Below are positions 53,130-56,762 of a stretch of DNA of 64,000 nt, piece after piece (position 1 is the first letter of the stretch; each line of letters begins with the position of its first letter). The notes under the pieces were generated by a model. It was not told the origin of the DNA. It made no database searches and saw only the letters and a program-made list of their open reading frames with translations. The translations under genes and the position numbers were made by a program. Origin of the DNA: Halorubrum lacusprofundi ATCC 49239 (GTDB lineage Archaea > Halobacteriota > Halobacteria > Halobacteriales > Haloferacaceae); the NCBI RefSeq assembly GCF_000022205.1, contig NC_012029.1:1-64000 (forward strand). Direction: 5' to 3'.

Positions 53130-54440
53130 AGCTGAATTGAATCGCTAAATTAACCACAAGAAAGTGTCTGGATCTGGATGTGTTCACCATACCTGATCCA
53201 GACGAGTACCTTTCGGCGTCGGATGTCAAAGACGTAGCGGAAGAGGTCATTACGCCACTCCCGTTGCCGGGTGTCGAGGGGAGCCCCCTCGACCCCGGCG
53301 ACATCTGGCTCGTCGTCATCCTAGCCTGCACTAACCAGAACTCGATTTGGGACACCTGCAACGATACCGAGGGAACGCCGTGTGACGACACTGTCTTGAG
53401 GTGGCTCCACACACTCAACCGTCAGTGGCTTGAGGTCGTTGCCAACCTTCTGCTCGCACGGCTCGCCATGACGATTTTCGACCCTGACCGGTCGAGAACC
53501 GTCTCCATCGACTTCATCGACAATCCCTACCACGGCGAGCACCATGCTGAGAAAGGCGAACTCTGTTCGATGGCTCCTAAGGACGGGACTACGACCTGCC
53601 ACCGCTACTGCACGGCGTACGTCGTCTCGAACGGGAAGCCGGTGACGCTGGCGATGACTTACGTCCGCAGTGACGAAGATGAGGCTGACGCGGTCGAGCG
53701 CGTGCTCGCCCGCGTCGAAAACTATCCCTTCGAGATCGATCTCTTGCTTGCCGACAGCGGATTCTACAACGAGCGCGTCATCCGCCGCGCTCGTGATATC
53801 GCCCCAACGGTCGTTCACGTGCCCAAGAAGGGCGAGCGCATGAAGGACAAACTCGAAACTCACAAGTCGTACATGACGACCTATCGCATGTACAAGGACA
53901 GCGAGCGGGAACTGCGCTTCCCGCTCGCGGTCGCTGTCTCCTACCAGAACGGAGATCGAGGCAAGCACGGCGAGGTCGTTCGTGGCTACGTGGCGTGTGG
54001 CGTTACTGATCGCTCAGCGAAGCAGGTCGAACACCGCTACAGGAAGCGTTCAGGCATCGAAACGACCTATCGCTTACTTCGGCAAGCACGCGGGATCACG
54101 ACGACGCGTGATCCCGTCGTGCGGTTTGCCATCATGTTGGTCGCGGCATTGCTGGAGAACCTGTGGCTGGTGCTACGGTGGGCGGTCGTCGCCCGCCCAC
54201 GGCGGGGCGGGCGCGACCTGCCCGAGGAGTTCACGTTCAAGACGTTCTGTGACTGGATTCGTCATGAGCTGGAAGAGGAGTTACGCCGCCGGTGGAAGAT
54301 CAAAGCGAACGGGGTTGGAGTGCCAGCATCACAGGCAACGGCCGCGGGCTGACCGGGGTCAGCCCACGGCCTGTCAGTTGGCGGTGAGCGACAGCTTTCG
54401 GCAGATACCGTCGAAATCCGGGTAACATCGTCTGTCCAAA
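53130..54440 (+). mobile_element. ISH3-type insertion sequence, ends not resolved
   Basis: The transposase gene at 53180 is full length. I could not find convincing terminal inverted repeats or a target duplication. The left end probably lies between 53090 and 53180, since the upstream gene is intact and ends there. The right end probably lies between 54380 and 54480. Composition drops in GC at both borders. Confidence 0.5.
53180..54352 (+). CDS. ISH3-family transposase
   Basis: The 390-aa DDE transposase starts at GTG 53180 (MFTIPDPDEYLSASD). The catalytic residues are the Asp of VSIDFIDNPYHGE (about 114), the Asp of IDLLLADSGFYN (about 193) and the Glu of YRKRSGIETTYRLLRQARG (about 298), with the Y-x2-R-x3-E-x6-R signature near the last. 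The frame is uninterrupted, so the element may be active. It belongs to the IS4-like ISH3 group common in haloarchaea. Confidence 0.92.
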   Translation: MFTIPDPDEYLSASDVKDVAEEVITPLPLPGVEGSPLDPGDIWLVVILACTNQNSIWDTCNDTEGTPCDDTVLRWLHTLNRQWLEVVANLLLARLAMTIFDPDRSRTVSIDFIDNPYHGEHHAEKGELCSMAPKDGTTTCHRYCTAYVVSNGKPVTLAMTYVRSDEDEADAVERVLARVENYPFEIDLLLADSGFYNERVIRRARDIAPTVVHVPKKGERMKDKLETHKSYMTTYRMYKDSERELRFPLAVAVSYQNGDRGKHGEVVRGYVACGVTDRSAKQVEHRYRKRSGIETTYRLLRQARGITTTRDPVVRFAIMLVAALLENLWLVLRWAVVARPRRGGRDLPEEFTFKTFCDWIRHELEEELRRRWKIKANGVGVPASQATAAG

Positions 54441-55922: not shown

Positions 55923-56273
55923 CTCGCTGCGCTCGCGGGGACGATGGACAGGTCGATCTTCAGGTGAGGCTCACGAATGTGGTTCGCTTGGAAAAGATAT
56001 GCCGCCTCCCCGATTTGAACTCTGGAAGACGATCCCGCTTGCTCACTCCCTTCGCTGCGCGGGCTGCGACTTCCATGCTCAAATCGGCTCGGGAGAATTT
56101 TCGCTGCTTACGGCTCGGTCGCTCCGCTCCCTCACGAGTTTGCAGGAAAATGCCGCCTCCCCGATTTGAAACGCGTGAGACTCCCTCCAGTCGTCTCACT
56201 GTTCCCCGCTCGCTGCGCTCGCGGGGACGATGGACAGGTCGATCTTCAGGTGAGGCTCACGAATGTGGTTCGC
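55923..56273. repeat. 65-bp exact duplication next to tRNA-Phe
   Basis: A 65-base block occurs identically at 55923-55987 and 56209-56273. It starts CTCGCTGCGCTCGCGGGGAC and contains GACAGGTCGATCTTCAGG, a degraded version of the tRNA-Phe anticodon arm (ACAGCTCGATCTTCAG). Each copy is followed within about 15 bases by a 20-bp tRNA-Phe 3' end. The block is part of the tRNA tail array. Confidence 0.85.
56000..56170 (-). repeat. Two extra copies of the tRNA-Phe 3' end
   Basis: TGCCGCCTCCCCGATTTGAA, the complement of the last 20 bases of tRNA-Phe, is present exactly at 56000-56019 and 56151-56170 as well as in the real gene at 56281. Spacing is 151 and 130 bases. They do not form tRNAs. Such tails are usual for sites where elements integrate at a tRNA gene and leave att-like copies. 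Confidence 0.85.
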
Positions 56274-56280
56274 AGGAAAA

Positions 56281-56354
56281 TGCCGCCTCCCCGATTTGAA
56301 CGGGGGACAGCTCGATCTTCAGTCGAGTGCTCTCCCAATCTGAGCTAAGGCGGC
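56281..56354 (-). tRNA. tRNA-Phe (GAA)
   Basis: The acceptor stem is GCCGCCT / AGGCGGC, with D-arm TAGCTCAGATTGGGAGAGCA, anticodon stem CTCGA / TCGAG with loop CTGAAGA (anticodon GAA), and T-arm CCCGTTCAAATCGGG. CCA is not encoded. Downstream (leftward) lie two extra 3'-end copies. Confidence 0.96.
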
Positions 56355-56477
56355 TCGCACTCGGACTAATGCCGATTCGGGACAAAAGGATTTCGAAAAG
56401 CGGCGACCGGATCGGCGAGTTGCGTCGTCGTCGCCATCGGGACGGTACTGGAGCGGTAGCGACGAGAAACAGCGAGA

Positions 56478-56620
56478 TGGGACCGCCAGGATTCGAACCG
56501 GAACCGAACGTGCTCGCTCCTCCGTCGCTGCGCGCGTCCGATAGGGCTCGAATCCGTTCACAGCTGCGGCGCTCACGGTGTTGTTTGCGCCGCGAAAGTG
56601 GGACCGCCCGGATTCGAACC
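56478..56620 (-). repeat. Two extra copies of the tRNA-Pro 3' end with covarying hairpins
   Basis: TGGGACCGCC-GGATTCGAACC, the complement of the tRNA-Pro 3' end, occurs at 56478 (one mismatch) and 56599 (exact), and in the gene at 56692. In transcript orientation each tail is followed within about 10 bases by a hairpin: CTGCTGC/GCAGCAG (56659-56686), GCGGCGC/GCGCCGC (56566-56593) and TCGTCGC/GCGACGA (56428-56465). The first two have 14-base loops. Confidence 0.85.
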
Positions 56621-56691
56621 TCAGTCGCTCCACTCCCTGCTTCGAATCCGCTCCACTACTGCTGCTCGCGGTGTTGCTCGCAGCAGAAAGA

Positions 56692-56762
56692 TGGGACCGC
56701 CCGGATTCGAACCGGGGTCTCGGGCACCCAAGGCCCGGAGTATACCACTAACCCACGGTCCC
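56692..56762 (-). tRNA. tRNA-Pro (TGG)
   Basis: The acceptor stem is GGGACCG / CGGTCCC, with D-arm GGTTAGTGGTATACTCC. The anticodon stem is CGGGC / GCCCG with loop CTTGGGT (anticodon TGG), and the T-arm is CCGGTTCGAATCCGG. CCA is not encoded. It faces the same way as tRNA-Phe and is followed by its own array of 3'-end copies. Confidence 0.95.

Follow-up and report, generated by a model that had tools for sequence, protein, structure and literature searches.

Repeat units ending in tRNA tail copies lie behind haloarchaeal tRNA genes and look like tiny mobile DNA cassettes

In integrons, gene cassettes are short and stand in tandem with fixed orientation at one primary site, the newest being nearest to that site, and the attC sites are long imperfect inverted repeats whose structure is kept more than their sequence. 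Among the elements known from haloarchaea, SNJ2 has an attachment core of 14 bp. More generally, the att scars of tyrosine integrases (SNJ2, pNOB8, and SSV types) duplicate a tRNA 3' end while leaving the tRNA intact, and the attachment core measures 13 bp in a Halovivax provirus of the SNJ2 type (PMC8371274). Short mobile repeats of haloarchaea are represented by SMR-A, PATEs, and MITEs of Haloquadratum, which are non-coding, about 110 bp long, and bear inverted repeats, with palindromes as their strongly preferred target; SMRs and PATEs leave their target unduplicated and are located within other mobile elements (PMC3119063). Lastly, a palindromic motif of about 19 nt lies just behind about half of the tRNAs of one archaeal species, Methanopyrus kandleri, and was suggested to be a processing signal, with no tail copy reported (PMC5217627).

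The locus considered here lies in a window of 64,000 nt from Halorubrum lacusprofundi ATCC 49239 (NC_012029.1, positions 1 to 64,000), this being the whole stretch of DNA analysed. In transcript direction, the order is tRNA-Pro, unit 1, unit 2, spacer, and tRNA-Phe, and the repeated sequence is the tRNA-Pro tail from G52 to the discriminator. The features are as follows.

56692-56762, minus strand: tRNA-Pro(TGG), the target gene (ARAGORN and Rfam)
56599-56691, minus strand: unit 1, type B, 93 bp, tRNA-proximal (taken tail to tail)
56659-56686, minus strand: hairpin 1 of unit 1, CTGCTGC / GAGCAACACCGCGA / GCAGCAG (sequence)
56641-56649, minus strand: inverted T-arm arm of unit 1, GGATTCGAA (tail comparison)
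56599-56620, minus strand: direct tail copy 1, GGTTCGAATCCGGGCGGTCCCA, identical to tRNA-Pro (tail comparison)
56478-56598, minus strand: unit 2, type A, 121 bp (covariance model match 56478-56558, E = 1.8e-15)
56566-56593, minus strand: hairpin 1 of unit 2, GCGGCGC / AAACAACACCGTGA / GCGCCGC (sequence)
56547-56555, minus strand: inverted T-arm arm of unit 2, GGATTCGAG (tail and motif comparison)
56508-56535, minus strand: conserved loop motif of unit 2, GCGCGCAGCGACGGAGGAGCGAGCACGT, with inner stem ATCGG/TCGGT on its flanks
56478-56499, minus strand: direct tail copy 2, one mismatch to tRNA-Pro (tail comparison)
56428-56465, minus strand: third stem TCGTCGC/GCGACGA, ancestral spacer, outside any unit (comparison with G208)
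56281-56354, minus strand: tRNA-Phe(GAA), also trailed by units
56000-56280, minus strand: two tRNA-Phe units (second: covariance model match 56000-56089, E = 5.3e-6)

An earlier note on this DNA had reported that the tRNA-Pro tail occurs three times, each time followed by a stem-loop. Both downstream copies are indeed real, and the first two stems are just as claimed, with 14-nt loops and four of the seven pairs exchanged. The third stem exists too, with a 24-nt loop, but it is no part of a unit, since the unit-free tRNA-Pro locus of genome G208 aligns to the H. lacusprofundi spacer past the last tail copy and lacks this stem. What that note had missed is the inverted tail copy in each unit, the second, covarying hairpin that the direct tail closes, and the presence of such units at the adjoining tRNA-Phe and many other tRNAs.

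A complete unit is non-coding, roughly 65-130 bp long, and made up, in order, of hairpin 1, an inverted tail copy, a conserved, G+C-rich loop, and a direct tail. Hairpin 1 begins at the first bases after the tRNA, the inverted tail copy includes the full T-arm with an acceptor part that is usually a few bases short, and the direct copy (22 nt in the window units) runs from the T-arm to the discriminator and pairs with the inverted tail as hairpin 2. The tRNA in front of a unit stays intact, with the unit itself supplying a T-arm and an acceptor 3' strand. As for the types, the type A loop has the common sequence TCGCGCGCAGCGAnCGnnGYGAGCGAGCACGTC, the type B loop is shorter (e.g., GAAGCAGGGA...GTGACTGAGG), and in type C only the last 14 nt or so are repeated, together with a related motif in the opposite orientation. 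A type B unit is also found at the tRNA-Pro of genomes G200, G217, G120, G203, and G227, and at tRNA-Leu(TAG) and tRNA-Val(CAC) of H. lacusprofundi itself. Judged by position and tail decay, unit 2 appears older than unit 1. At tRNA-Phe, the first unit contains a copy of the tRNA-Phe anticodon arm. In the tRNA-Phe units, the anticodon-arm copy is degenerate and a hairpin is inserted before the T-arm (55941-55968 and 56227-56254). About 2 kb away from these units is a reading frame of 390 aa with the look of an insertion-sequence transposase (53180-54352).

Across the H. lacusprofundi genome, and leaving a tandem tRNA-Asp pair aside, tail copies (24 nt, 18 or more matching) occur within about 340 nt downstream of 12 tRNAs, whereas the tRNA 5' ends, serving as a control in the same genome, gave no copies except at that pair, and hence the tail copies exceed chance. 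Comparison of all 48 tRNAs of this genome placed tail-like sequence, direct and/or inverted, behind 16 loci, among which the loosest matches (e.g., tRNA-Thr(TGT)) and the tandem tRNA-Asp pair make unconvincing units. The two tandem tRNA-Asp(GTC) genes, at G000 C2:114519-114693, are 29 bp apart, have identical first and last 24 nt, and are then followed by an apparent decayed unit. The extent of the target copy was judged from 117 first units. At T-stem positions 49, 50, and 51, the direct copy is identical to the tRNA in 10, 56, and 24% of cases, respectively; the identity then rises to 94-99% between position 52 and the end of the T-loop, amounts to 91-95% over the acceptor, and drops to 85% for the discriminator. 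As GGTTCRA is common to nearly all tRNAs, the true junction is possibly anywhere in this segment. Moreover, for 109 of these 117 units, the inverted arm is a closer fit to the tRNA of its own unit than to the rest.

The earlier note would have been refuted by a lack of similar units in related genomes, and this is decisively not what was seen: units of this kind stand behind the tRNAs of related genomes throughout the order, and behind most tRNA isotypes. A covariance model of hairpin 2, built from 36 units, matched 176 of the 195 Halobacteriales genomes, spread over 59 of the 66 genera, with up to 23 matches per genome; these genome-wide counts are those of the hairpin 2 model. Within Halorubrum, 51 of 52 genomes carry units (2-17 model matches each). 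Of 295 genomes drawn from the whole phylum, 51 matched, every one a member of Halobacteriales. All seven model matches below E = 0.01 in the H. lacusprofundi genome lie behind tRNAs (Gly, Arg, Gly, Lys, Pro, Phe, and Val), and 50 of 55 model matches stand a short way behind a tRNA of the same orientation. When its ends were required to be exact, the type A motif was present in 35 of the 195 genomes of the order, its reversed control pattern gave no match in the same genomes, and 58 of 63 motif matches are located 53-522 nt downstream of a co-oriented tRNA. In a motif scan of 84,980 species genomes, 118 stretches were returned, and among the matches listed all are haloarchaeal or from archaeal/Halobacteriales bins; 70 of the 84 matches examined lie no more than 420 nt from a tRNA, and in the remaining 14 the arms of a tRNA tail can still be made out. 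Taken together, motif and model matches place units behind over 20 kinds of tRNA, and several matches away from a tRNA are explained by an inserted island. The core motif CGARCG-NN-GYGAG alone was discarded as a unit marker, as it occurs by chance in coding sequence. In Rfam, the window matched only tRNA and rRNA families, and none for the units.

Compared with the systems above, the units resemble integron cassettes in being short, tandem, and of fixed orientation at one primary site, near which the newest may also lie, and each ends in a long imperfect inverted repeat in which, as in attC sites, structure is kept over sequence, as judged by covariation counts. However, they have neither a gene nor a known linked integrase, their target is the T-arm and acceptor of nearly every tRNA isotype, and no attC core motifs were found in them by eye. 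With MITEs, SMRs, and PATEs they share a non-coding nature, a size under about 300 bp, inverted repeats, a strong target preference, and dispersal in many copies, but the units contain their target sequence in both direct and inverted form, sit behind tRNAs, and have the 22-nt tail at both ends. Like integrase att scars, they duplicate the 3' end of an intact tRNA, though they also hold the inverted tail and conserved loops, while the M. kandleri palindrome is likewise an inverted repeat just behind many tRNAs, but is shorter and described for one species. In the open literature searched, with subscription papers outside its scope, we found no description of tRNA-tail repeat units, and these look like an undescribed kind of tiny mobile DNA cassette.

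The stems of the units covary strongly. In hairpin 2, the paired positions show 62 double changes against 20.4 +/- 4.4 in shuffles that ignore relatedness, so that the exact size of the excess is soft, and the signal is gone when the partner is offset by one, two, or three columns. What is firm, however, is how varied the stems are: the five-pair inner stem occurs as ATCAG/CTGAT, ACCAG/CTGGT, GCCAG/CTGGC, GGAAG/CTTCC, GCAAG/CTTGC, GAAAG/CTTTC, and others, and is paired at 4.6 of 5 positions, versus 3.7 when shuffled, in 177 distinct units.

Comparisons between relatives showed that units come and go as wholes. Across the genus, tRNA-Pro is followed by no complete unit, one, or two, with decayed remains often beyond. 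In Hrr. distributum JCM 10118 (G201) and Hrr. ezzemoulense DSM 17463 (G202), in which the gene upstream of tRNA-Pro is 97% identical, a single complete unit is present in one and absent from the other at tRNA-Lys(TTT), twice at tRNA-Gly(GCC), and at tRNA-Ser(GGA). These indels equal exactly one unit with clean tail-to-tail boundaries; the alignment past the indel is best at the two tRNA-Gly loci and poor at the tRNA-Lys flanks, and the position of the tRNA-Ser indel depends on how the repeats are aligned. Such exact differences at orthologous tRNAs, and the finding of one kind of unit behind most isotypes across the order, support the suggestion of the earlier note of an element whose insertion brings in a tail together with a hairpin. 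Where an array has at least two copies, the tail nearest the tRNA resembles the tRNA more than the last copy does in 25 arrays and less in 3 (some of the loci had been selected because they have units, a choice that should leave the order unaffected). Because the tail copies are more decayed the farther they lie from the tRNA, arrays seem to be extended on the side of the tRNA, and insertion right beside it would be the simplest reading. When loops and hairpins are compared for similarity, the clusters follow the tRNA in part and the genome in part, which is no proof of movement between tRNAs.

The same tRNAs also receive integrative islands. In genome G004, an 8.1-kb island (L160 11638-19900) with integrase-like and methylase-like reading frames, as judged by eye, lies between tRNA-Gly(TCC) and a unit; its att repeat spans the tRNA from anticodon arm to 3' end, and beyond the right end of the island comes the unit. 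By eye, too, the integrase-like frames of this island are split at about 12,500, and the methylase-like protein has 1132 aa. An identical arrangement, with the island between tRNA and unit, is found at tRNA-Leu of G149, and right-end-like tails directly before units suggest it for Hrr. rubrum and Hrr. tebenquichense. As the unit follows the right end of the island in both G004 and G149, units were there before the islands and are not island ends. The att repeats of the islands are at least 44 bp, versus 22 nt for the units, and thus differ from these in extent, and the island ends, compared by eye, bear no resemblance to units. We thus rejected ordinary integrase att scars as an explanation, given that the island att repeats differ and that units lie beyond islands, in line with the view of the earlier note that these are not simple decayed att sites.

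Our preferred reading, to which we would give a probability of about one half, is that the units are non-autonomous, cassette-like DNA elements inserted in trans behind tRNA genes. They would enter directly behind the tRNA in fixed orientation through a putative recombinase that acts at the T-loop/acceptor and recognises the folded or duplex inverted repeat, with new units added beside the tRNA, as cassettes enter an array. Such a recombinase would have to be widespread among haloarchaea, given that units are present in 51 of the 52 Halorubrum genomes and that no virus or plasmid was seen with units apart from a tRNA. In fact, the phage collection contained no unit, 15 of 16 viral motif matches are not units, and the single plasmid match sits behind tRNA-Val of an 828-kb replicon, and we therefore set aside a viral or plasmid origin. 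Against this reading, neither a recombinase nor a circular intermediate was found, each single presence/absence case fits loss by recombination between tails as well, presence/absence can arise by deletion or duplication between tail repeats, and array polarity could come from stronger gene conversion beside the tRNA. Spread between isotypes would need an extra step, since a unit that arrives with a foreign tail would damage a tRNA of another kind.

The main rival to mobile cassettes is passive genome dynamics, which we consider a doubtful explanation. Here, tail copies made by integrases of SNJ2-like or other elements with short cores would be multiplied and lost by tail recombination or slippage, and template switching would keep the arms complementary with no dedicated mobile unit. 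Consistent with this, the repeat of about 14 nt of the acceptor end in type C is the size of an SNJ2-type attachment core, exact loss is explained by tail-to-tail recombination, and template switching can yield compensating changes without selection. Against this, conservation of the loop motif, together with the stems on its flanks, extends over 59 genera, and most units keep an asymmetric internal loop (CCT vs TYC) that template switching would heal. Moreover, the real islands in these tRNAs, with their longer att repeats and unlike ends, displace units, and the unit copy starts sharply at position 52 rather than at the start of the island att.

An unlikely, more far-reaching form of the cassette reading is a gene-less cassette system, in which a common host recombinase would act at the T-loop of any tRNA and insert there hairpin cassettes that are folded, single-stranded or cruciform, every tRNA being a primary site that builds an array, as an archaeal counterpart of the integron in mechanism.

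Alternatively, the units could be a host RNA element, with hairpins as terminators, trailer-processing signals, or exonuclease blocks and the T-arm/acceptor copy as an RNase Z decoy, but we regard this as improbable. Its appeal lies in the fixed orientation directly after the tRNA, the near-universal occurrence in haloarchaea, and the precedent of the M. kandleri palindrome as a suggested processing signal (PMC5217627). In addition, the predicted fold of the sense strand is about 2 kcal/mol more stable than that of the antisense, which points towards RNA but is probably compositional. A fold acting as RNA should have G-U pairs far outnumbering A-C mismatches, as is the case in tRNA acceptor stems from the same data (29 G-T vs 1 A-C). 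In contrast, hairpin 1 mismatches comprise 18 G-T, 37 A-C, and 41 other, hairpin 2 has 25 G-T against 16 A-C, and the transitions of the inverted arm compare as 44/934 for G-U and 40/1072 for A-C. No clear enrichment of G-T over A-C is thus seen in the unit stems, and the hairpins look maintained as DNA, not RNA, so we rejected an RNA fold as the selected feature. Furthermore, orthologous tRNAs without units show no visible substitute, no Rfam family matches, and several copies behind one tRNA would be superfluous for a processing signal. The 3'-end processing/termination cassette, also proposed in the earlier note, hence finds no backing in stems that lack an RNA signature and units that are patchy at any one tRNA. 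An RNA intermediate, in which read-through of the tRNA gives a transcript that ends in the tail and that primes, or undergoes reverse transcription, at a nicked tRNA 3' end to give tail-to-tail insertion, would account for the tail at both ends, the fixed orientation, and insertion beside the tRNA, but with stems lacking an RNA signature it is very improbable.

Units occur in about 90% of the sampled haloarchaeal genomes, behind nearly every kind of tRNA and without an Rfam family. Should they be mobile, they would form a new class of minimal elements that target tRNAs at large and have a recombinase open to testing. Otherwise, they still account for a large share of the confusing tRNA fragments in haloarchaeal genomes and warn against taking each additional tRNA 3' end for an integration scar. 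Either way, they are natural arrays for tracing tRNA-site recombination in archaea.

Two further observations were made alongside. In G202 (C74:4125-6980), over ten tRNA-like matches fall within 3 kb of a single contig, which may be viral or some other mobile array of tRNAs. In addition, a dispersed, structured Halorubrum repeat (GGTGGCGCGTGCC...GAGGCTGGGGAGG...GGTGGGACYCAAAGGGGCAG-stem-CTGGGGCTTTGGAGG), which had no Rfam match and may be an unknown RNA or element, occurs at G000 C2:355421, 602869, 824692, and 1818358, and also beyond tRNA-Pro in loci L140, L143, L144, L148, L152, and L157. Its variable stem carries a loop resembling the type B loop.
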